Source of the DNA: Dehalococcoidia bacterium
GTDB taxonomy: Bacteria > Chloroflexota > Dehalococcoidia > DSTF01 > JALHUB01
Length of the DNA: 64,000 nt
Assembly (NCBI GenBank): GCA_030018455.1
Contig: JASEFU010000003.1
Location: forward strand, 124,001 to 188,000
Reading direction: 5' to 3'
Below the pieces are notes generated by a model, which saw nothing but the letters and a program-made list of their open reading frames with translations, was not told the DNA's origin and ran no database searches. Shown here in pieces: positions 10,950 to 22,756 of the stretch. Positions within the stretch are counted from its first letter, which is position 1. Every line of letters begins with the position of its first letter. Both the position numbers and the translations under genes were made by a program.

Positions 10950-10978
10950 TTGACCTTTTTCGTGGTTGCGCGTTCTTA
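10950..10978 (+). promoter_or_regulatory. Promoter of the first cohesin-like gene (shared surface-gene motif)
   Basis: TTGACC at 10950-10955, 17 bases, then TTCTTA at 10973-10978. The spacer contains CCTTTTTC and ends TTGCGCG. The promoter at 16037-16065 has almost the same spacer. The -10 itself is weak. Confidence 0.55.
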
Positions 10979-11068
10979 ATTTGCAATGTATCATGCGCCT
11001 AACTACGTTCCGTTTCGCCTTAGTTGGATCGCGCGGGGCTGGTGCGCGCGCCCGCAGGGAGGTGACCG

Positions 11069-12943
11069 ATGAGACGACCCATTACTCGTTCCCCCAGGTT
11101 CACGTTGCTCGCGGCAGCCGCCGTCGTACTGGCTGTGGCCGTCGCCATGATCAGCTTCGCGCTGATGCAGGGCGGCGGCGAGGAAGCGTCCGCCCACTAT
11201 TACGACTTCGATGGGGATACCCTCACCGACCTCCACATGGAGATCGATATGGACGTCACCAACGGCAGCGGCCCCTGCGACCCTGCGGCCACCGACAACG
11301 TCGGCCCGCAGCGACAGCTGGGTGTGGAGTACGAGGTGGCCGTCTGCGTGCACGGTCTGTACCTCGGCTTTCCGCCGGGGACAGTCGCCTTCGACGTGCT
11401 GTACGACGACACGCTCAACCTGGCGCCGGAGGTGGCGAATGTCGGAACCGGCCTCGACGACAACCCCGACGCCAACGCAGGCGCAACCACGTTCAACGGC
11501 GAAGGGCACGACCTGGGCGACGGCTGGGACTGCTCGTCCGGCGGTCTCGCTTTCCCCATGGGTGACAAGAACCCGGCCACCGGACCGGGCAACGGCCGCG
11601 CCTTCCTGTCCTGCTCGAGCCTCACGGGGCCTTTCCGTCTCGGCGATGACGAGGACTGGGGCACTCTGGCCGTAATCACCTTCATTCCCCTTGAAAACGG
11701 GACGGACACCCTCCAGATTAGCTGGGGGACGCTTGGCTACACCGACGCCTCGGAGATGGGGACCTGCAACCCGGACGTCCTGTTCCCGATGGTCTGCCTC
11801 GACGGCACCGACATCAAGGGCGAGCCGCCCACCGAAACGCCCACGCAGCCGGGCCCGACGAACACGCCTACGGAAACGGCCACACCGACCGAAACGCCAC
11901 TTCCCACTGACACGCCCACCGTCACCAACACACCCACCGAAACGGCCACACCCACGGAGACCAGCACGCCTACAGTCACCAGTACACCCACCGAAACGCC
12001 CACTCCCACCAACACGCCCACCGAGACGCCCACTCCTCCGCCGCGCGCCTACATAGACAAGGACATCACTAACGGCGAAGGCCCCTGCGACCCCGACGCA
12101 ATCGACGACGAGACGACGGAGTTCGTGGGCGACACCCACACCCTCGCCGTCTGCGTAGCCGACGTCTACGAGCCTGTCACCCGGTTCCGCGTGCTGGTCT
12201 CGTACGACGGCGAGTTGGACGAGTGCCTCGACGAGGAATGCGGCGTTGAGGACGAATGCCTCGATGACATGCCCGACGCCAACGCCGGATCGACAACCTT
12301 CGGCACCAGCCTCGGCGATGGTTGGGACTGCAACATCGAGATGGAGCCGTACTGCGGGGCGGAAGGCTCCGCCGGTGAAGCCGAAATCTGGTGCTGGGTC
12401 CTCGAAGGCACCGCCAATATCGGCGACATCACCAACTACGGCGCTCTCGCCACTATCGACTTCGAGGTCCTTGCCCCCGGCGCCGACCAGGTCGACATCA
12501 CACTGCTGGAGATATGGGGCGAAGAGGGGGTCATCGGGTACTGCCCCGGCCTGGATGGCCTCCCGAGCGGCGCGCCGGCCGCCCGGACCGGCCCGGGCGG
12601 CGTCGTGATGGACTGCCAGGGCGCGACGGACGAGAAGGTCCCGCCGACGACGCCCACGCCGTTCAGGCGCAAGACGGCGACGCCGACGCCTGAGCCCACG
12701 GACACGCCCGTCCCGCCGACGAGCACGCCCGCGCCCACGCTGCCGCCGCCGCCTCCGCCGACATCGACCGCGACGCCCACAGGCGGCGCCGGCCCGATCG
12801 TCGCTCCGCCTACGGGCAGCGGCCCGTCCGGAGGCTTTGACTGGACGCTCGCCGCCCTGCTGACGGCGGGCGCGGCGGGCGCCCTGGCTGCGGCCGGAGG
12901 CGTGTACCTGCGCCACGCCGGGCGCTGGCGCCGGGTCCGCTAA
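11069..12943 (+). CDS. Cell-surface protein with two cohesin-like domains and C-terminal sorting-type signal
   Basis: 624 residues. A signal peptide or anchor (residues 11-33) is followed by a calcium-loop-like '[11 protein letters not shown]' (46-56). A first cohesin-like beta domain spans about 57-250, with '[17 protein letters not shown]' and the signature '[10 protein letters not shown]...LGDGWDC'. A Thr/Pro/Glu linker of TPTET repeats (about 253-325) leads to a second cohesin-like domain (about 326-530), with 'PDANAGSTT...LGDGWDC' and extra cysteines. A second Pro/Thr linker ends in PPTG (580-583), a hydrophobic helix and the basic tail [10 protein letters not shown]. This layout resembles a sortase substrate or tail-anchored surface protein, and three sortases lie 5 kb downstream. 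Cohesin folds bind dockerins in cellulosomes, but the fold is also used in other adhesins, so the ligand is unknown. Confidence 0.75.
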
Positions 12944-12960
12944 GCGATAACAGAAAAGAC

Positions 12961-13017
12961 GAGGGCGGCGATTCCTTCGCCGCCCTCCCCACAAACGGCC
13001 CCGCCGGCGGCGGGGCC
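12961..13017 (+). terminator. Tandem GC-rich hairpins after the first surface gene
   Basis: GAGGGCGGCG (12961-12970) pairs perfectly with CGCCGCCCTC (12978-12987). A second 9-bp hairpin, GGCCCCGCC with GGCGGGGCC, spans 12997-13017. There is no T-run, so this is either a weak terminator or an mRNA-stabilising structure. Confidence 0.5.
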
Positions 13018-13086
13018 CGCCGGAAAGCGGATCGACCGCACGCCGGCTAATCGGAACAGGACGCCGGACTTTTCTTCGCGCATCGG

Positions 13087-13115
13087 TTGACATAGCGGAA
13101 GCTGATGCGTTACAA
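13087..13115 (+). promoter_or_regulatory. Promoter of the second cohesin-like gene
   Basis: TTGACA at 13087-13092 (consensus), 17 bases ending GATGCG, then TTACAA at 13110-13115. The layout is that of the promoters at 10950 and 16037. The leader is about 120 bases. The rest of the 12944-13241 gap holds the hairpins listed above and nothing else recognised. Confidence 0.6.
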
Positions 13116-13241
13116 GTACGTCGTTGGTCGGCATCCGGGCTGCGCGAGCGGCCCAACCCTCGCAATCGCAAGCATCGCGCGCAGGGCGCGCACATTTCGG
13201 CGGGGTACTCATATGCAAATGAGCCAGAGAGGAAGGGAACC

Positions 13242-14312
13242 ATGAAACGCTGGCGAATAATCTCTCTAGCCATCGTCGCAATCGCTTTGCTGGCCGGGCT
13301 GTTGCTCCTCGCCCGGCCCTGGGGAAGCGAGCAGGCCGCTGCTCAAGAGCCGGTACCCATCGTAGTCTCCCTCGACATGGAGACATCCGACGGCCCCTGC
13401 ACCGACATCGATGCGACGGCGTTCCATGATCCGGGCACAATCTACGACATCGGCCTCTGCGTGTCGGGCCTTTACGCTGCGGCCGGCGGGTTTACCGGGA
13501 CAGGGATAGGCACGCTCGCCTTCGATGTCCTCTACGACGACCTATTGAACGTGGCGCCCGAGGTGGCGAACAGCGGGAACGGGCTCGACGACAACCCCGA
13601 CGCCAACGCCGGTTCCACAATCTGGGGCGACGGTCTCGGCAGCGGATGGGACTGCTCCACCGGCGGTATCGCCTACCCGATGGGTGACAAGAACCCGGCG
13701 AGTGGCCCCGGCAATGGTTGGGCGTTTCTCCAATGCACAAGCCTTGCCGGCCCCTGGACGCTGGGAGATGACGAGACAAGCGGAGTAATCGCGGTGATCC
13801 ATTTCCAGGCAATCGCGGCCGGTGAGGACACGCTCACTATCGCCAATGGTCTGCTGGGCTTCCCGGACGCCTCCGAGATGGGAACGTGCAATCCCGCATA
13901 TAACTGGGAAATGACCTGCAACGGCGGCACGGAGAGCAAAAGCGGCGAACCGCCTCCGCCCACGGCCACGCCTACCGCCACGAGGACGTCGACTCCAACG
14001 CCCTGGTGCGGCGGCCCCGGCCAGCCCACGTGCCCGACCTCGACGCCGACGCCCAGGGCCTGGACGATGACGCCCACGCCGCCGCCAACCGATACCCCTG
14101 AGGCGCCGCCTCCGCCGGCGGAAGAGCCGACCCTACCGCCTCCGCCACCGCCACCGGGCGGCGGACAGCAGCCGGTCGTCGTGCCTCCGCCCACGGGCCA
14201 GGGCAGCGACAGCGGCGTGTCACCGGCGGCAGCGGGGCTTATCGGCATCGCCTGCGCAGGGGCGCTGCTGGTCGGGACAGGACTCGTGTTGCGGCGCGTG
14301 AGGAGCCGCTAA
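13242..14312 (+). CDS. Cell-surface protein with one cohesin-like domain and C-terminal sorting-type signal
   Basis: 356 residues, a shorter paralogue of the 11069 gene. A signal peptide (residues 1-35, ending AAAQ) precedes one cohesin-like domain (about 38-235). This domain shares long near-identical stretches with domain 1 of the paralogue: 'FDVLYDD.LN.APEVAN', '[10 protein letters not shown]', '[16 protein letters not shown]' and '[10 protein letters not shown]'. A Pro/Thr linker with 'TPTATRTSTPTP' leads to PPPTG (315-319), a hydrophobic helix and the tail LRRVRSR. The close similarity at DNA level (around 11410-11480 and 13550-13610) points to a tandem duplication. ATG start has GAGGAAGGG upstream. 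A terminator follows directly. Confidence 0.75.
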   Translation: MKRWRIISLAIVAIALLAGLLLLARPWGSEQAAAQEPVPIVVSLDMETSDGPCTDIDATAFHDPGTIYDIGLCVSGLYAAAGGFTGTGIGTLAFDVLYDDLLNVAPEVANSGNGLDDNPDANAGSTIWGDGLGSGWDCSTGGIAYPMGDKNPASGPGNGWAFLQCTSLAGPWTLGDDETSGVIAVIHFQAIAAGEDTLTIANGLLGFPDASEMGTCNPAYNWEMTCNGGTESKSGEPPPPTATPTATRTSTPTPWCGGPGQPTCPTSTPTPRAWTMTPTPPPTDTPEAPPPPAEEPTLPPPPPPPGGGQQPVVVPPPTGQGSDSGVSPAAAGLIGIACAGALLVGTGLVLRRVRSR

Positions 14313-14321
14313 CGATGCGTG

Positions 14322-14351
14322 AAAGGGGGCGCGTGAAAGCGTGCCCCCTTT
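14322..14351 (+). terminator. Intrinsic terminator after the second cohesin-like gene
   Basis: A 12-bp stem, AAAGGGGGCGCG with CGTGCCCCCTTT (one G-U pair), around a 6-base loop. A smaller hairpin, GGCAGC-CTGC-GCTGCC, lies at 14357-14372. The T residues are within the stem. Confidence 0.65.
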
Positions 14352-14480
14352 AACAAGGCAGCCTGCGCTGCCCCATAGGAACCTAGCCGGCTGCTGCCTC
14401 CGCGGCCGCTCTCTCGCAGGGAAGCGGCGCCGGAAGATGGCCGGACTGCTGGAGTGCAAGAAAAAAGGGGGACGCAAACA

Positions 14481-15941
14481 ATGAAATGGACAAAGCTGGC
14501 AATCACCATTTTCGTTCCCGTGCTGGCTCTTCTCGTTTTCGCGCAAACGTTTGAATCGAAGACGGCGGAGGCCAGGATCGTCTCCATCGTAACCGTCAAC
14601 CAGGTCCTCTGCACCACGATGACCGCTTCCCTGGACTGGGACGGCGACACGATACCGGGTGAAGCCGAGGACGGCACGGCCGCCTTTACCGCTTGCTTGT
14701 CCCTCGCAGGTGCGACCGAGTTCCGGCAACTGGTGACGGTGCTGGGGGCCGACCCGGACAAGCCCACTCCCGAGGACCTGGCGAAGATAGATGTCGACGG
14801 TGGGCAGTTCCACCAGATGGACGGCGCGGGCTACGTCATCGCCTTCGTCAACAGCGATCAGCCGGTAGGCTTCGCCGCCGATACCGGCATCTTCCAGCGC
14901 ACGGGGGCGAGCTTCGCGCGCTGCGGACCCATCGGCCCTGACTATGATTTCGAAGACGAAGACTGCGATAACGACGGGGTCAGGGGCGACGGCGTTGTCC
15001 TGGTCAAATGGCTTGCCAACCGCGACGACCGCGGCCCCGGCGTATTTCGCGTACGCCAGGGAATGATCGAGGTCGAAGAGCCTTACACCATCGTCGGCGA
15101 GCCACGTAACATCACGGTCAGCGCGAACAAGACGGTGATTCAGGCCGGCGCCGCCCAGTGCGAGCTCTTCGGCGACACCGCATCCTTCCTTGCCACGCTT
15201 CGCGCCGCGGAGAAGACCCCCCTTATGGCAAAGGTTGTCGACGAGGACGGGACGGAGGTGACAGCGGCCCTGGTCACGTGGGAGGTCAGGGATAGCGACG
15301 GCGCTATTACCGCCTTGCCCCTCGTCCCCACCGTCAGCAGTCCGCTCGGCGTCGGAGCCCCCAACGTTCTCTGCGGCCTCGAGCCGGGAACAGTAAGGGT
15401 GAGGGCCTCCACCGTCAAAGCTCCCAGCCCAACAAGCCCTCCGCTTGACTTGAATGCCACAGAACGGCACGTCGAAATCGAAGTCACCGTGATGGCGCCG
15501 CCGGAAGAGATGGTCCTGAGCGCCGAGCCGGCCAGCCTCGTCTGCGACGGCACCGCTACCGCGACCGTAAGCGCCACCCTTACCGACGCCGAAGGCAACC
15601 CTGCCGTCGACGGCAACGTTGTCGTTTTCGAGTCGAAGACGCTGGGCACCGTATCGCCGAAAGAGGCGAAATCGGCGGGGGGCGTAGCTACCACCGTTTT
15701 GACGCCGCTCTCCGACATCGCCAGGGGCGTCACCGTCAAGGCAACTTTTATGCTCCCTGAACTGGATGTGAACGACATAGAAGACCCCGATGACGACGAG
15801 GAGATTCTCGTGCCCGTTATCGAGAAGAGCATAATCGTGGCGTGTGCGGAGGCAGCGCCGGCGCCGCCGCCCGCGCCGCCGCCCGCTCCGCCGCCTGCCA
15901 TACAGCCGCCGCCCACAGGCAGCGGGGGCTACCTTCCCTGA
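14481..15941 (+). CDS. Secreted Ig-like (Big_1-type) protein ending in PPPTG motif
   Basis: 486 residues. The signal peptide is 'MKWTKLAITIFVPVLALLVF...TAEA'. The N-terminal region includes 'LDWDGDTIPGEAEDG' and 'PEDLAKIDVDGGQFHQMDG', then a beta domain resembling that of the 16358 protein. Two Ig-like units follow; the second ('LVCDGTATATVSATLTDAEGNPAVDGNVVVFESKTLGTV...GGVATTVLTP', split here by a gap) is a typical bacterial Ig-like group 1 domain. The C-terminus is a Pro/Ala linker and the final 11 residues PPPTGSGGYLP, with no hydrophobic helix after it. An upstream in-frame GTG at 14454 is rejected because ATG at 14481 has AGGGGG at good spacing and yields a clean signal peptide. I see no clear promoter of its own. 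Confidence 0.75.
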   Translation: MKWTKLAITIFVPVLALLVFAQTFESKTAEARIVSIVTVNQVLCTTMTASLDWDGDTIPGEAEDGTAAFTACLSLAGATEFRQLVTVLGADPDKPTPEDLAKIDVDGGQFHQMDGAGYVIAFVNSDQPVGFAADTGIFQRTGASFARCGPIGPDYDFEDEDCDNDGVRGDGVVLVKWLANRDDRGPGVFRVRQGMIEVEEPYTIVGEPRNITVSANKTVIQAGAAQCELFGDTASFLATLRAAEKTPLMAKVVDEDGTEVTAALVTWEVRDSDGAITALPLVPTVSSPLGVGAPNVLCGLEPGTVRVRASTVKAPSPTSPPLDLNATERHVEIEVTVMAPPEEMVLSAEPASLVCDGTATATVSATLTDAEGNPAVDGNVVVFESKTLGTVSPKEAKSAGGVATTVLTPLSDIARGVTVKATFMLPELDVNDIEDPDDDEEILVPVIEKSIIVACAEAAPAPPPAPPPAPPPAIQPPPTGSGGYLP

Positions 15942-15975
15942 GGCCTGCGTCGAAGGGAAGAGTTGTCCGGCAAGC

Positions 15976-16005
15976 AAAGGGAGGCCTCTTTGGAGGCCTT
16001 CCTTT
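15976..16005 (+). terminator. Intrinsic terminator after the first Ig-like gene
   Basis: A 13-bp stem, AAAGGGAGGCCTC (15976-15988) with GAGGCCTTCCTTT (15993-16005), one G-U pair and a 4-base loop. The 3' arm ends in CCTTT. Confidence 0.7.
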
Positions 16006-16036
16006 CACGCCATGCGGCCGCAGGCGAAAAAAGGCG

Positions 16037-16065
16037 TTAACCTTTTTCCGACTTGCGCGTTATAA
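16037..16065 (+). promoter_or_regulatory. Promoter of the second Ig-like gene (shared surface-gene motif)
   Basis: TTAACC at 16037-16042, 17 bases, then TTATAA at 16060-16065. The spacer TTTTTCCGACTTGCGCG closely matches that of the promoter at 10950-10978 (TTTTTCGTGGTTGCGCG). Confidence 0.6.
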
Positions 16066-16071
16066 GGAACA

Positions 16072-16357
16072 GCGCAGGCCCGACCGGGCGTGGCAGGGAA
16101 CACGCGCGCCTGTAAGGGATGACGCTAATCGGGAGGGAGCCCGCAAGCCGAATAACCGGCAGGCCGGCTACGGTCGGCAGGGAAGCGGGAAGAGCGAAAG
16201 GAGGTGCAGCAATCCACAAGCCCTGAACCGGCGCCTCACGCCCCGCGTCGTCGACAAGTGTCTCGGCCGAGGGCGACGGAGGGCTCAGCGCAGGGGAAGG
16301 GACAACCACTCGGTAAGTAAATCAAAACGTGAGTCTCAAGACTAAGGAGGGTTTGAA
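16072..16357 (+). other. Long structured 5' leader of the second Ig-like gene
   Basis: About 285 bases separate the predicted start of transcription from the TTG start codon. The part at 16130-16200 can fold: CCCGC near 16140 with GCGGG near 16185, enclosing CCGAATAACCG paired to CGGTCGG. It also contains an internal AGGAGGTG (16199-16206) with no matching gene. No known riboswitch consensus is recognised. No coding potential is evident. Confidence 0.4.
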
Positions 16358-17692
16358 TTGAAGAAGTTTGGAATACTGGCAGGGCTGGCATTCGTGGCGC
16401 TCCTGCTCGGCATGGCGGGAACCACCATCCGCAGCGACGACGCCCAAGCCCGCCCGACCGCGGTCATTGCGCTCAGCCCCACCATCGTTAATTCGCTCAC
16501 CGATGCGGCGTGCGCTCCCGCGTGCAACCTTGCTAACCCGGCACACCTTCTTGCCGTTGCCGACGAAGAAGGCGACGGGGATGGCAGGGTAGAGGCAAGC
16601 GACTTTGCCGACATCGACCTGGACGCCAACCAGCTAAATGAAGATACCGGCGTCTTGTGGATTCTGGCTTTCGTGACCAACGACGACCCGGTCACTTTCA
16701 GCGCCGACGTGGGCGCTTTCGCCGAATCGGGCGCCGCTAACTGGGTTTGTGACACAGCGCTGGAAGAGGCCGACTGCGACGCCAACGCCGCCACCGTTGG
16801 CGATGGAGCCGTCGTTGCCACCCTCACTGCCGGCGCGGGCGGCTTTGCCCGCGATGACGACTACGAGCTGCTTGTCAGCCAGTCGGGCATCGACGTCACA
16901 ATCGAGTACGCCGTCGTCGGCGACCCGGACGCGATCTCTGTGATCGCCTTCCCCTCTGACACCGTCATGGAAGGGCTGGACCTCGGCGACTGCACCGGTC
17001 TCGACCTCGCGGACTTCACGGATGAGATCGAGGAACCCACGGTTACCGGCCTCATCGCGACGGTAGAAGACGACGACGGGACTCCACTCGCCGGAGCCTT
17101 TGTCGGCTGGGAGTCCGATGACACCGATGTCGCCGTACTCACGCTCCCTCTGACCGTCAGCATCGAGACCGATTCAGGCACCTTCGCCGTCAACCTGGTC
17201 TGCGGAGTTGAACCCGGAACGGCCACCATCACCGCCAGCGCTCTCCTCAGCCCGATGGGGCCCGAGGTGGACGACGACGAAGTGGACATCACGGTCGTCG
17301 GCGAGCCGGCGGACATGACCGTAACCGCCAGCCCCGCATCCATCACCTGCGACGGCACAGCCAGCTCAACCGTGAGCGCCGCCCTGGTGGACGCTGAGGG
17401 CAACCCCGTCGTGGCCGGCATCAGAGTCCGCTTCGACGTTGTGGCGCTCGGCACCGCCGACCCGATCACGGCTGTCACTGACGCCGAGGGCGTTGCCAGC
17501 AGCACAATCACACCGCTGTCCGGCGTATCGGCTGGCGTGGTCGTGATAGTCAGCGTGCCGGACTTCGACCTTGAAAGCTCGATCAGGATCGACTGCGCCG
17601 CGCCGCCACCCACAGTGGCCCCGCCGCCCACGGTAGCGCCGCCACCCACAGTGGTGCCGCCGCCCACCGGCGACGCGGGACTGCTCGACTAG
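16358..17692 (+). CDS. Secreted protein with dockerin-like loop and Ig-like domains, ending in PPPTG motif
   Basis: 444 residues, a paralogue of the 14481 protein. The signal peptide covers residues 1-31. At 72-92 lies 'GDGDGRVEASDFADIDLDANQ', an Asp-rich loop plus helix resembling half of a type I dockerin or an EF-hand. A beta domain and two Ig-like units follow, the second ('ITCDGTASSTVSAALVDAEGNPVVAG') being Big_1-like. The linker is APPPTV repeats, and the last 11 residues are PPPTGDAGLLD with no membrane helix after them. Start is TTG at 16358, fixed by a strong AAGGAGGG (16344-16351) six bases upstream and by the signal peptide. The gene has its own promoter and an unusually long leader. 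Confidence 0.75.
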   Translation: MKKFGILAGLAFVALLLGMAGTTIRSDDAQARPTAVIALSPTIVNSLTDAACAPACNLANPAHLLAVADEEGDGDGRVEASDFADIDLDANQLNEDTGVLWILAFVTNDDPVTFSADVGAFAESGAANWVCDTALEEADCDANAATVGDGAVVATLTAGAGGFARDDDYELLVSQSGIDVTIEYAVVGDPDAISVIAFPSDTVMEGLDLGDCTGLDLADFTDEIEEPTVTGLIATVEDDDGTPLAGAFVGWESDDTDVAVLTLPLTVSIETDSGTFAVNLVCGVEPGTATITASALLSPMGPEVDDDEVDITVVGEPADMTVTASPASITCDGTASSTVSAALVDAEGNPVVAGIRVRFDVVALGTADPITAVTDAEGVASSTITPLSGVSAGVVVIVSVPDFDLESSIRIDCAAPPPTVAPPPTVAPPPTVVPPPTGDAGLLD

Positions 17693-17719
17693 GACAGTCT
17701 AGCCGGGAAGCTATTCTGA

Positions 17720-17752
17720 CTGGGGGTCCCGGACTGCAACCGGGGCCCCCAG
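17720..17752 (+). terminator. Strong hairpin after the second Ig-like gene
   Basis: A 13-bp stem, CTGGGGGTCCCGG with CCGGGGCCCCCAG (one G-U pair), around ACTGCAA. No T-run follows. Confidence 0.6.
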
Positions 17753-17834
17753 GACTATCAACACGATAAGGACGAAAGACAGGCTAACTCCCGCTGACAC
17801 AATCGGCAGGGACGGCCGATACCGCCGGAGAAGC

Positions 17835-17863
17835 TTGAAGGCCAGACGCGGCAAAAGTACAAT
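17835..17863 (+). promoter_or_regulatory. Promoter of the sortase genes
   Basis: TTGAAG at 17835-17840, exactly 17 bases, TACAAT at 17858-17863. Predicted leader about 55 bases. Confidence 0.6.
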
Positions 17864-17925
17864 TCGAAAGGGATTTCCCGGCAGAACCACCTTGATCGGC
17901 AATCAGGAGAGCGAAGAGGCCTACC

Positions 17926-18750
17926 ATGGATCGACTTAGACTACCGGGCGGACGGGACAGAGGGCCAGGAGGCGGAGGTCGGCTGGAGCAGTTGCGGCGG
18001 TGGCTCGACTGCCTTCAGCCGCGCCAGCGGTGGGCCGTAATCGCAGGCGTGCCCATAGCCCTTCTCCTCATCATCGCCGCCGTATCCACAACGCTCGCCC
18101 TTTCGCTGGGCGGCGACGGCGACGCAAAGAGCGCCGCCGCGCGGACTGCGACCCCTTCGGAGGGCGAATCGGAAGGGCTGCTCAACGAAGACCTGACGCA
18201 GTCGCTTCTGCTGGCCAAAGAACACCTTGAGCAGCGTCTGCAAACAAACGGCCTCGCCGGCACTCACCCCGAGGCGCCGGTGCCCGGCCAGGAAGGCGAC
18301 CGACTTCTAATCGCCAAGATCGGCGTCGACGCCCCTATCACCATGCGAGTCGTGGGCACGGACGGCCACATGCCACGGCCCGAGGGACCGACAGACGTCG
18401 CCTGGTATGACTTCTCCGCCTTCGAGGGGCTCGGCGGCCGGCCCGGCGTGGGCGGCAACACCGTCCTCTCCGGCCACGTCGACTACCGTGACTACGGCCC
18501 CGCTGTCTTCTGGGACCTGCGGAAGTTGGAGGCGGGCGACGAAATCGTCATCCGCCTCAGCGACGGCTCGGAGTACAAGTACGTCGTGCAGTGGAACCGC
18601 GTCGTCGATTCCAGCGCCGCCGTCTGGAACGACATCGTCGCCTCCACGCCTCAGGAATCGGTGACGCTGATTACCTGCGCCGGCACATTCGATCCCTCCA
18701 CGAGGACCTATGATCAGAGGCGCGTTGTCTGGGCTGTACGGGTGGCTTAG
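17926..18750 (+). CDS. Sortase (class F-like), first of three
   Basis: 274 residues. A cytoplasmic Arg-rich N-terminus and one membrane helix (about 38-61) are followed by a linker and a C-terminal sortase domain (about 125-274). The catalytic triad is visible: His184 in LSGHVDY, Cys251 in TLITCAG and Arg265 in TYDQRRVV. The 'GHVDY...PAVFWDL..L..GD.I' layout is that of class E/F sortases of Actinobacteria and Chloroflexota. Sortases cleave a C-terminal sorting motif and transfer the protein to a cell-wall or pilin amine. The PPTG-bearing proteins just upstream are the obvious candidate substrates. ATG at 17926 has GAAGAGG upstream. The end overlaps the next sortase by 41 bases. Confidence 0.88.
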   Translation: MDRLRLPGGRDRGPGGGGRLEQLRRWLDCLQPRQRWAVIAGVPIALLLIIAAVSTTLALSLGGDGDAKSAAARTATPSEGESEGLLNEDLTQSLLLAKEHLEQRLQTNGLAGTHPEAPVPGQEGDRLLIAKIGVDAPITMRVVGTDGHMPRPEGPTDVAWYDFSAFEGLGGRPGVGGNTVLSGHVDYRDYGPAVFWDLRKLEAGDEIVIRLSDGSEYKYVVQWNRVVDSSAAVWNDIVASTPQESVTLITCAGTFDPSTRTYDQRRVVWAVRVA

Positions 18751-19537
18751 GGAGAGGTCCTCGCGCCTTTCGTTCCGGCCGCGAAACCGGCTTCACATCG
18801 CTCTGCTGGCGGGCGTGCCCGTCGTCGTCCTGTCGACCGTTGCGGCACTCACATGGCTCTTCCTTTTCAGCGGTACCGGAGACGGGCCGTCGACATTAGC
18901 CCGCGTCCTCGACGCCGCCGTTTCCCCCACGCCTCGCTCGACACCGACGCCGCGCCTTACCGCTTCGCCGACCCCGCTCCCCACCGCCACCAGCGAAGCC
19001 CCGCTGGAGGCCGCTTCCAGCGACTCCGATGCGACAGGTTCGTCCGAAGTGACCCACGAATCGCAGGGCCCGGCAGCGGAAAGCGGCATGCGGATGGTGA
19101 TACCCAAGATCGGCGTGAACGCCCCCGTCACCATCCGCGTCATGGGCCCCGACGGCGTGATGGGCCCTCCCAACGGCCGCTTCGACGTCGTCTGGTACGA
19201 TTTCTCCGCCTTCCCCGGCCTCGGAGGCTACCCCGGCTCGTCCGGCAACGCCGTGTTCTCCGGCCACGTCGACTATCACCCCCACTACGAGGCGGTCTTC
19301 TGGGACCTCCGCCTCCTCGCGCCTGGCGATATCATCGAAGTCTATCTGCCCGACGGCGCAGTGGCCCGCTACTCCGTCCAGTGGGCGCAGACGATCAGCC
19401 CCGAGTCCGACTTCAGCTCCTACTGCGCAGACACGGGCGAAGGCACAATCACCATCGTCACCTGCCAGGGCACCTTCAACCCGGCGACGCGCCAATACAA
19501 CCAGCGGCTCGTCGTGCGCGGCGCCCTCGTTCCCTAG
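18710..19537 (+). CDS. Sortase (class F-like), second of three
   Basis: 275 residues. An Arg-rich cytoplasmic start and a membrane helix (about 29-54) lead to a long Thr/Pro/Ser linker ('TPRSTPTPRLTASPTPLPT') not seen in the first sortase. The sortase domain occupies about 127-275. Catalytic residues are His186 (FSGHVDY), Cys252 (IVTCQG) and Arg266 (QYNQRLVV). ATG at 18710 lies within the end of the first sortase gene, with GAGGA five bases upstream, so translation is probably coupled. It is a paralogue of its neighbours but clearly diverged, which suggests different substrate preferences. Confidence 0.87.
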   Translation: MIRGALSGLYGWLRERSSRLSFRPRNRLHIALLAGVPVVVLSTVAALTWLFLFSGTGDGPSTLARVLDAAVSPTPRSTPTPRLTASPTPLPTATSEAPLEAASSDSDATGSSEVTHESQGPAAESGMRMVIPKIGVNAPVTIRVMGPDGVMGPPNGRFDVVWYDFSAFPGLGGYPGSSGNAVFSGHVDYHPHYEAVFWDLRLLAPGDIIEVYLPDGAVARYSVQWAQTISPESDFSSYCADTGEGTITIVTCQGTFNPATRQYNQRLVVRGALVP

Positions 19538-19639
19538 CGTTCTGACACGCCCATGGCCCGCCGAAGAGCGCCGCCTCTTCCTCGTGCGGCGCCGGTTTCT
19601 TAGAATAGTGTTGCAGATTCTATTGGGGAGGGACGGGGC

Positions 19640-20329
19640 TTGCGCTTTCGGAACCCTAGACGGCAAGAGAGCCTGAGCAGGCTCTCCGTCGTGATCATGG
19701 GGCTCGGCGTTGCCGCTCTCATGGCCGCCGGCATCCTCTTCGGTCTTTCGGCGACCGGCATCATCGGTAACAACGGCCGGTACAGTGGGCCCGGGACGAC
19801 TACCGGTTTCGGCTCAGTCGTCGCTACGCCTCCTTCGATTACCCCGCCACCGCAGTCCACGCCCCCCAGCGACGCTCCCATCGCGCGGCTCGTCATCCCG
19901 CGGGTCGGGATCGACGCGCCGGTCGTCACCCTGGGCATCGACGGCGACGGCGTGATGCAGTCACCGTCGAACGCCTACGACGTCGCCTGGTACGATTTCA
20001 GCACCCGGCCGGGCTTCGGCAGCAACGCCGTCTTCTCCGGCCACGTCGACTATCATGACGTCGGGCCCGCCGTCTTCTGGGAGCTGCGCCATCTGCAAGC
20101 GGGCGACATCGTCGAGGTCCGCCTGGCGGACGGCACCATCTACCAGTACAGCGTCACCGCGCTCGAGTGCCTGCCCGTCGACACCGCGCCCATCGGCGAG
20201 ATCGTGGGGCCGACGCCCAATGAAGTCGTAACCCTCATAACCTGCTGCGGCGAGTTCAACTACAGCACAAGACAGTACAGCCACCGGCTCGTCGTGCGGG
20301 CCGAACGCGTGCTCGTACCGCCCTCCTGA
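19640..20329 (+). CDS. Sortase (class F-like), third of three
   Basis: 229 residues, the shortest of the three. It has one membrane helix (about 17-40), a Pro/Ser/Thr linker and a sortase domain (about 80-229). Catalytic residues are His135 (FSGHVDY), Cys202 (LITCCG, with an adjacent second Cys203) and Arg216 (QYSHRLVV). Start is TTG at 19640, supported by GGGGAGGGA upstream. It is separated from the second sortase by 102 bases, so it may have its own promoter; only a weak TAGAAT at 19601 is visible. The gene is followed directly by a tRNA-Ser promoter. Confidence 0.87.
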   Translation: MRFRNPRRQESLSRLSVVIMGLGVAALMAAGILFGLSATGIIGNNGRYSGPGTTTGFGSVVATPPSITPPPQSTPPSDAPIARLVIPRVGIDAPVVTLGIDGDGVMQSPSNAYDVAWYDFSTRPGFGSNAVFSGHVDYHDVGPAVFWELRHLQAGDIVEVRLADGTIYQYSVTALECLPVDTAPIGEIVGPTPNEVVTLITCCGEFNYSTRQYSHRLVVRAERVLVPPS

Positions 20330-20401: not shown

Positions 20402-20492
<91 letters not shown>

Positions 20493-20516
20493 TTAATACA
20501 ACGTCCTCCGCCGCGC

Positions 20517-20605
20517 GGAGAGGTGCTGGAGTGGACGATCAGGCGCGCCTGGAGAGCGCGTGACCCCTTTGGGGTCCGTGGGTTCGAATCCCACCCTCTC
20601 CGCCA
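20517..20605 (+). tRNA. tRNA-Ser (anticodon GGA)
   Basis: 89 bases including CCA, with the same acceptor stem and T-arm as the preceding tRNA-Ser. The anticodon stem CGCGC/GCGCG encloses loop CTGGAGA, giving anticodon GGA (reads UCC/UCU). The variable arm is ACCCC-TTT-GGGGT. It starts 25 bases after the first tRNA and is probably co-transcribed. Confidence 0.97.
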
Positions 20606-20797: not shown

Positions 20798-21214
20798 TCA
20801 CATGCCCCTGCGGCGGCGTCTCGTCATAGTCTCGTAACGGTGGCGCGCCTCTTCCTGCCCCTCCACCATGCCCTCTCTCACCTCCGCCGCCGCATCCGAT
20901 AGCCTCTCCTTCACTGCCCGCAAGAAATTACGGATACGGGGGATTATGCCGCCGCCGGGCATGCTCTCCACCCTTTCGAACAGCGCCTGCGTACGCCCCA
21001 GCGCTTCTTCCGCCAGCTCCTGCCGCCGCTCCCACAGCTCCGGCGCCTTCTCCCGCGTCATCGCCCGAAACTCCTCCCCGGGCATGGGAGTAAACAGGAC
21101 GGCGAGAAGTCCGCCCAGGGCGGAACCGGACAGAAAGCCGGAGACAAAGCCGGGGCCGCCCTTCCCCGCCCGCTCCTCTTCTTCCTCGCGCTCCTTGTCG
21201 CCTTTCGCACCCAT
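20798..21214 (-). CDS. YtxH-like gas-vesicle/stress-type membrane-associated protein
   Basis: 138 residues. A very acidic/basic N-terminus (KGDKEREEEEE) is followed by one short hydrophobic segment 'GFVSGFLSGSALGGLLAVLFTPMPGEEFRA', the hallmark of YtxH-domain proteins (a Gly-rich helix followed by a P-x-x-G-x-E/K turn). The rest is an amphipathic helix-rich region and an Arg-rich tail (RRRRRGM). YtxH proteins are linked to general stress or envelope functions, but no activity is known. It is the third gene of a likely mnmA operon. Confidence 0.75.
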   Translation of the reverse strand: MGAKGDKEREEEEERAGKGGPGFVSGFLSGSALGGLLAVLFTPMPGEEFRAMTREKAPELWERRQELAEEALGRTQALFERVESMPGGGIIPRIRNFLRAVKERLSDAAAEVREGMVEGQEEARHRYETMTRRRRRGM

Positions 21215-21246
21215 CGAATGGCCTCCTCGCTCTCTTCTGCGGCCCC

Positions 21247-21567
21247 TCAGCGGCGCACCCTTCTCGTAAAGCCGAGCAGCGACATCAGGCCTCTTCTCAG
21301 TCCCGTGAAGAGACCGTAGAGGCGGATTATGGGGCTGACGGCGGTATCAGTGACGAAGGCGGTTGCGCCGCGGACGTTGTCCACCGCCTGCCGCGCGGAG
21401 TCCAGGGTTGGGGAAAGCTGCTGCTGCAACATCGACTGCGCCACCGATATGAGCCCCCGCGCCGAAAGCCCGACGACCAGCACGACCACAAGAGTCACAA
21501 ACAGGACCAGTATCGACATGGCCCCGCAAATGATGATTATGAGGTCGCGCACCTCCTGCAAGTCCAT
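21247..21567 (-). CDS. Small membrane protein, DUF948-like
   Basis: 106 residues with one strong N-terminal membrane helix (about 6-33, 'DLIIIICGAMSILVLFVTLVVVLVVGLSARG'-type, interrupted here only by notation). An amphipathic helix ('LDSARQAVDNVRGATAFVTDT') and a basic tail (FTRRVRR) follow. The arrangement resembles DUF948/YtxG proteins, which often neighbour YtxH. Start ATG at 21567 has GGAGGTG within the last codons of mnmA and sits 4 bases after the mnmA stop, so the two are coupled. The longer frame from 21627 would overlap mnmA and is rejected. Confidence 0.65.
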   Translation of the reverse strand: MDLQEVRDLIIIICGAMSILVLFVTLVVVLVVGLSARGLISVAQSMLQQQLSPTLDSARQAVDNVRGATAFVTDTAVSPIIRLYGLFTGLRRGLMSLLGFTRRVRR

Positions 21568-21571
21568 CTCA

Positions 21572-22684
21572 TCACCTCCCTGAGATAACGATGGCTTCCG
21601 GGCGTCCCCGGCGGGCGGCCGCCCCAACTACCGATATAATACCACCCCCGATTACCTCCTCCCCCTGATAGAACACGACTGCCTGGCCCGGCGTTACGGC
21701 CCGCTGCCGCTCGCGGAAACGCACCTCCGCCCTGGCACCGCGCATCCGGACGGTCGCCGGCGCGGCAGGAGTGCGATAGCGGATCTTCGCTTCGACGGCC
21801 GCTTCGCCTTCCGGCGGCCTGCCGCTCACCCAGTTCACGGCGTCGGCGATCAGCGCCTCGGACAGCAAATCCTCCTCGTCGCCGATCGTAATGACGTTTT
21901 CCCGCGCGTCTATCGACGCCACGTATCGCCGTTCGCCCAGCGCAACGCCCAGCCCGCGCCGCTGCCCGATGGTGTACCCGGCGATCCCATTGTGAGTCCC
22001 CACCGTCCTGCCGTGCACATCGACGACGCGGCCCGGCGCCCGCGCCACACTCCGCGCCTTCAAGAAGGCCAGGTGATCGTTCTCGGGGATGAAGCAGATC
22101 TCAACACTGTCGCGCTTCTCCGCCACCGGCAGCCCCAGCGAGGCCGCCATCCGCCGCACCTCCGCCTTCGTGCGCTCGCCGACGGGCAGCAGCAGCCGCG
22201 ACATCTCGTCCTGGCCCAGCGTGTAGAGGACGTAAGACTGGTCCTTCGAATCGTCGACGGCCCGCAGCAGCCGGTACTCGCCGTCAACCTGACGGATGCG
22301 GGCGTAGTGGCCCGTCGCCAGGTAGCCGGCGCCCCACCGGCCGATGCGGCGGAGGAGATGCTTGAACTTGATGCTGTCGTTGCAGGCGAGGCAGGGGTTG
22401 GGGGTGCGTCCCTGCTCATACTCGCGGCAGAAGTAGCGCACCACCTCCTCCTCGAACTCGCGCTCCAGGTTCACCACGTAGTGAGGTATGCGGAGGACAC
22501 GACAGACCTCGCGCGCGTCGTCGGCGCCGAGCACGCAGCAACCCGCCCGCAGCGAGGACCCGTCGCTCCACAGGCGCATCGTCACGCCGACGACTTCGTA
22601 GCCGCGCTCCAGCAGGAGGGCGGCGGCGACGGAGGAATCGACGCCCCCGCTCATCGCCACGACCACGCGCTTCTTCTCGTTCAT
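21572..22684 (-). CDS. mnmA: tRNA-specific 2-thiouridylase MnmA
   Basis: 370 residues with start at ATG 22684 (GGGGAACGG upstream). The enzyme thiolates U34 of tRNA-Lys, -Glu and -Gln. The PP-loop ATP pyrophosphatase motif SGGVDSS lies at residues 12-18. Catalytic Cys98 is in 'TPNPCLACND' and Cys198 in 'VEICFIP', the two cysteines that carry the persulfide. The C-terminal beta-barrel includes 'GQAVVFYQGEEVIGGG'. The frame is open 69 bases further upstream, but that part overlaps the divergent rsfS promoter and is rejected. It is divergent from rsfS and first of an operon with two membrane-protein genes. Confidence 0.95.
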   Translation of the reverse strand: MNEKKRVVVAMSGGVDSSVAAALLLERGYEVVGVTMRLWSDGSSLRAGCCVLGADDAREVCRVLRIPHYVVNLEREFEEEVVRYFCREYEQGRTPNPCLACNDSIKFKHLLRRIGRWGAGYLATGHYARIRQVDGEYRLLRAVDDSKDQSYVLYTLGQDEMSRLLLPVGERTKAEVRRMAASLGLPVAEKRDSVEICFIPENDHLAFLKARSVARAPGRVVDVHGRTVGTHNGIAGYTIGQRRGLGVALGERRYVASIDARENVITIGDEEDLLSEALIADAVNWVSGRPPEGEAAVEAKIRYRTPAAPATVRMRGARAEVRFRERQRAVTPGQAVVFYQGEEVIGGGIISVVGAAARRGRPEAIVISGR

Positions 22685-22717
22685 CGTCCGTTCCCCGGGT
22701 GCGCCCGCTTCCGGCCG

Positions 22718-22726
22718 TGTTATAAT
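22718..22726 (+). promoter_or_regulatory. Extended -10 promoter of rsfS
   Basis: TGTTATAAT at 22718-22726: consensus TATAAT with the TGn extension. No clear -35. The predicted start, about 22732-22734, leaves a leader of only about 24 bases before the CTG at 22757. Confidence 0.65.
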
Positions 22727-22756
22727 ATCGACACCGCGTCGAGAGGAGGTCACGGT

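Follow-up and report, generated by a model that had tools for sequence, protein, structure and literature searches.

The textbook sorting signal includes a membrane helix and a basic tail that hold the substrate near the sortase. In Clostridioides difficile, whose Cd-SrtB cleaves PPKTG (PMC5118464), the hydrophobic helix and tail of CD3392 are required for membrane association and sorting (PMC5569036). The sole case of a tail-less sorting signal elsewhere that we found in the open-access literature is that of streptococcal AbpA, in which the C-terminal KAGKALPKTSAVK is needed for anchoring and, when transplanted, put GFP on the wall; AbpA is anchored by SrtB, and part of the protein is released (PMC4974636). 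S. aureus SrtA can likewise build soluble LPxTG peptides into the wall, albeit with low efficiency (PMC4723074). PPxTG already counts among the sortase motifs, and the physiological role of class F sortases is described as unknown (PMC13251363). No paper on sortases of the Chloroflexota was found in the open-access literature.

We analysed a locus in a window of 64,000 nucleotides (the whole stretch of DNA considered here) from a draft Dehalococcoidia genome of 2.38 Mb in 26 contigs; the searches covered 18 genomes of the order, including two from the source family (f1). An ORF check places four surface-protein genes followed by three sortase genes (Table 1), and the four exported proteins, each with (A/P)PPTG-G near the C-terminus, and the sortases after them lie as the initial annotation had described. 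Protein 2 is 59% identical to domain 1 of protein 1, and protein 4 starts at a TTG codon with an AGGAGG-type site immediately upstream. The four proteins are not alike in their signals: proteins 1 and 2 alone have a full sorting signal of motif, membrane helix and basic tail, whereas in proteins 3 and 4 the reading frame closes six residues past PPTG, with neither a hydrophobic segment nor a basic tail.

Table 1. Features of the surface-protein and sortase island (positions in the window).
Feature	Position	Strand	Description
Protein 1	11069..12943	+	Exported; two mutually related domains, also akin to protein 2; linkers rich in Pro/Thr; sorting signal and membrane tail at the C-terminus
Sorting signal of protein 1, complete	12803..12943	+	Motif, hydrophobic helix, basic tail
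Protein 2	13242..14312	+	Exported, one domain; paralogue of protein 1
Sorting signal of protein 2, complete	14184..14312	+	PPPTGQGSDSG, hydrophobic helix, RRVRSR
Protein 3 (IgA)	14481..15941	+	Exported; Invasin_D3/Big_1 Ig-like domain; tail-less
Tail-less motif of protein 3	15906..15941	+	PPPTGSGGYLP-stop
Protein 4 (IgB)	16358..17692	+	Exported paralogue of protein 3; tail-less
Tail-less motif of protein 4	17657..17692	+	PPPTGDAGLLD-stop
Sortase 1	17926..18750	+	Class F-like; groups with first sortase of related islands
Sortase 2	18710..19537	+	True start may be farther downstream; 41-base overlap with sortase 1 as called
Sortase 3	19640..20329	+	Predicted sortase fold, with a membrane helix at the N-terminus

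Proteins 3 and 4 have the features that mark the AbpA type of substrate, namely a signal peptide, a motif with a short tail and a gene near sortases. The AbpA/SrtB system of oral streptococci is alike in its signal peptide, its short-tailed LPxT-type motif (a three-residue tail), the lack of helix and basic tail, and the position of the gene beside that of the sortase (PMC4974636). Anchoring was shown experimentally for AbpA, which differs in its LPKTS-AVK ending, its SrtB enzyme, and its arrangement of one substrate with one sortase (PMC4974636); the island combines PPxTG-x-[AG]-G-[LY] endings on Ig-like proteins with three class F-like sortases, and has tailed substrates as well. C. difficile SrtB with its (S/P)PxTG substrates resembles the proposed system in having PPxTG as the cleaved sequence (PMC5118464, PMC5569036), but it is a class B enzyme, and the substrate tested has a full helix and tail and requires both for membrane association (PMC5569036). 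PPxTG was already known; the new features here are the class F-like context, the occurrence in Chloroflexota, and recurrent natural switching between tailed and tail-less endings.

The three enzymes had been described as class F-like sortases that keep the His/Cys/Arg triad. The Sortase family PF04203 scores 73.3, 64.2 and 83.0 bits in sortases 1, 2 and 3, far above the Pfam cut-off of 26.6, and the catalytic His, Cys and Arg are present in all three; in sortase 3 these are His135, Cys202 and Arg216, which are invariant among orthologues. The class assignment stands in one respect and not in another: class F (NF033748) is the top-scoring NCBIfam subfamily for each by a wide margin (94, 82 and 113 bits), but none of the three reaches its curated cut-off of 166 bits. 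From the class F enzymes of Actinomycetota (Cutibacterium acnes SrtF and Actinoplanes SrtF1-4, PMC13251363) the island sortases differ in these lower scores (82-113 of 166 bits), in coming from the Chloroflexota, and in being clustered with their putative substrates. The predicted structure of sortase 3 has an N-terminal membrane helix and a sortase barrel, and matches solved sortases with Z of about 16-17; assignment of the class from structure was rejected, as classes A, C, D, E and F score alike for this enzyme.

Both tail-less proteins match the Invasin_D3 and Big_1 families in Pfam, at 40.1 and 35.5 bits for protein 3 and at 47.5 and 43.5 bits for protein 4 (cut-offs 33 and 34.9, respectively). 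The label cohesin-like, given to proteins 1 and 2 in the initial annotation, found no confirmation: they have no cohesin match in Pfam at E 0.1, and their domain gave no fold match, from a low-confidence model (mean pLDDT 44).

A proteome scan covering about 95% of the source genome (1,885 usable gene models) found 11 of 16 PPTG occurrences within the last 60 residues of a protein, compared with 2.8 expected (p = 9e-6), which rules out chance as the source of this ending; nine of the 11 proteins have an N-terminal export-type sequence. Generic P-x-T-G is not enriched at C-termini in the same proteome (35 vs 31.7 expected). This enrichment, the synteny of the island, and the acceptance of PPxTG as a sortase motif (PMC13251363, PMC5118464) support the inference of the initial annotation that PPTG would be a sorting motif. 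The motif is not special to the island: about 11 proteins, among them proteins 1 and 2 and an LPPTG protein on contig 8, combine PxTG with a hydrophobic segment and a basic end, so that at least nine tailed PxTG proteins besides proteins 1 and 2 are encoded outside the island. Among short PxTG endings in the source genome, PPTG is present only in proteins 3 and 4.

Synteny of the island extends across an order of Dehalococcoidia (Chloroflexota), with the surface-protein block and three orthologous sortases kept across genera, which argues in favour of the earlier suggestion that it may be a dedicated surface-display locus. Ig-like homologues lie upstream of orthologous sortases in the sister families f2 and f3, and there they are tailed (PDTGNGGYLGQD-helix-RK; an example of the full signal is PDTGNGGYLGQDGSAGFPMWTLVALALGSVALVAGGMVTRKVSK). 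Compared at the same position within the protein, the Ig-like protein carries PDTGNGGYLGQDG-helix-RK in f2/f3 and PPxTGxGGYLP-stop in the two genera of f1; in the sister genus within f1, the Ig-like proteins end in TPPRTGDGGYLP-stop and SPPSTGDGGYLSGE-stop, with PPxTGxGGYL kept. Because the homologues are tailed in f2/f3 and tail-less in both f1 genera, loss of the tail is most simply a derived state of f1, common to both paralogues. Between the two f1 genera, identity is about 50% in the domains, 37-40% in the linker, and 64-73% in the last 11 residues (7-8 of 11 positions), a moderate degree of conservation for a motif that has lost its tail. In a tree of 68 sortases, island sortases 1-3 occupy separate groups, in which sortases 2 and 3 pair with sister-genus sortases and sortase 1 groups loosely with the first sortases of related islands; from these separate groupings with the enzymes of relatives, the sortase trio predates the tail loss. 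A scan of named genomes gave no match with the Ig-like protein and 39 loci with the sortase alignment, and the named relatives found via sortase 3 are metagenome-assembled Dehalococcoidia/Chloroflexi.

Two trivial sources of the short endings were considered. A frameshift or read-through to a hidden membrane tail was rejected, since the 240 bases that follow five tail-less genes in G000 and G001, which represent the two f1 genera, contain no hydrophobic stretch in any of the three frames. A sequencing or assembly error is unlikely, since two genera of the family share the ending, which recurs in further genomes as well.

A strict tail-less pattern, PxTG[NSDG][AG]G[LYFHQ]xx-stop, searched in 393 genomes of the class, gave 17 matches vs 14 in a reversed control; five of the 18 order genomes account for 11 of the 17, and the remainder is at the level of the control. 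Outside the order the pattern is at background level in genomes with and without sortases, and a class-wide link between tail-less endings and sortases was set aside as uninformative there; a class search with loose gaps was too noisy for use. The check proposed in the initial annotation, co-occurrence of motif and sortases, was run in part, and the tail-less pattern is indeed concentrated in this order, but sortases are present in all 18 of its genomes, so that co-occurrence within the order is uninformative. When the stop is not required, PPxTG[NSDG][AG]G[LYF] has 39 matches in the order and two in the reversed control, which rules out chance for the extended pattern. These are two forms of one ending, in which the tailed form continues for 29-40 more residues with a hydrophobic segment and the tail-less form for 1-6, a few being longer. 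About 18 tail-less PPxTG-x-[AG]-G-[LY] proteins, from several unrelated exported families, are found in nine of the 18 genomes. Tailed and tail-less homologues are encoded as neighbours in one genome (G004, C28), and the LPPTG protein adjoining the sortase of contig 8 has a tail-less homologue, L271. In one exported family (L222, L223, L227, L242 and L246), whose signal peptide ends near ACS/ACQ, every member seen lacks the tail; PPDAG replaces PPxTG in one of these, and Thr is therefore not strictly kept. As tailed signals directly beside sortases in relatives also bear x-[AG]-G-[LY] (PDTGNGGYLGQDG, PAKTGNAGLLGQS), these residues may be part of what the sortases read.

The reading we favour, and consider rather probable, is that the island is dedicated to surface display and that its sortases anchor both tailed and soluble, tail-less PPTG substrates. 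Secreted proteins would expose a PPTG-type motif at the C-terminus, and the three paralogous, membrane-bound class F-like sortases would cut it, presumably at the Thr-Gly bond, and link the product to an acceptor in the envelope, for which a peptidoglycan precursor is the likeliest candidate. The source genome encodes MraY of the lipid II pathway, with a score over the cut-off, and lipid II is therefore a plausible acceptor. In proteins 1 and 2 the usual helix and basic tail would provide retention at the membrane. Proteins 3 and 4, which appear to have lost the tail and kept the motif and following residues (PPxTG-x-[AG]-G-[YL]), are probably captured as soluble or just-translocated substrates, as AbpA is by SrtB, and part of the tail-less protein is likely to be released. 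We infer the cleavage, the pairing of enzymes with substrates, the acceptor, and the attachment of the tail-less proteins from sequence.

Proteins 3 and 4 might instead be merely secreted, the tail having been lost for release and PPTG being an unused leftover, and the island sortases would act on proteins 1 and 2 and on the tailed proteins scattered elsewhere. Nothing would hold a protein at the membrane once the tail is gone, one member of a tail-less family has the PPDAG variant, and AbpA is itself partly released (PMC4974636), all of which fit simple secretion. A leftover within a Pro-rich linker would be expected to decay, however, whereas the motif and [AG]G[LY] are still found in two genera that have diverged by about 50%, and about 18 proteins belonging to several families keep them; we therefore regard simple secretion as unlikely, albeit the most serious of the alternatives. 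The conservation that runs past PPxTG to x-[AG]-G-[LY], an extension absent from the ten source-genome proteins picked by the tailed-signal filter, could be read in another way, with the tail-less ending acting as a docking or interaction tag, or as the site of another protease, and resembling the tailed motif by descent only. The same extension in the tailed signals beside sortases in relatives fits sortase substrates also, and a tag or protease site seems improbable to us.

Pilus islands have several sortases beside Ig-like repeat proteins, and the grouping of several sortases with adjoining Ig-like repeat proteins here resembles them. An ordinary class C/F locus, with proteins 3 and 4 as polymerised pilus-like subunits, is nonetheless very improbable: no class C assignment was obtained, class F scores far higher, and the known pilin precursors carry a full tail.

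A further and more tentative proposal is that in this order of Dehalococcoidia tail-less sorting could be a second regular route, in which class F-like sortases would anchor soluble secreted proteins by reading both sides of PPxT|G-x-[AG]-G-[LY] without membrane retention, with several shifts from tailed to tail-less forms. This is possible, and we hold it with less assurance than the reading we favour. Where tailed and tail-less homologues sit beside orthologous sortases, a direct test of whether and when retention is needed becomes feasible; such pairs would also offer class F-like sortases a role, and the tail-less motif would be a handle for finding surface proteins of uncultured Chloroflexota that are overlooked by a three-part search.

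Two further sortases are encoded elsewhere in the source genome, on contigs 8 and 4. The fourth (G000:C8:35777-37058, L002) is followed directly by the LPPTG protein, and its locus adjoins genes resembling those of polysaccharide synthesis and chain-length control. The fifth (G000:C4:165250-166101, L005) is close to sortase 2 in the tree, and its N-terminus, MKRRFLFLGLLAVLPAFALMGC, resembles a lipoprotein signal rather than an uncleaved membrane helix. Directly downstream of sortase 3 are two tRNA-Ser genes (CGA and GGA, window 20402-20605), and beyond them on the minus strand (window 20798-22753) are two small genes and an mnmA-like gene, with the same placement in another genome of the comparison (G008, L281); this shared downstream block suggests an old chromosomal site.
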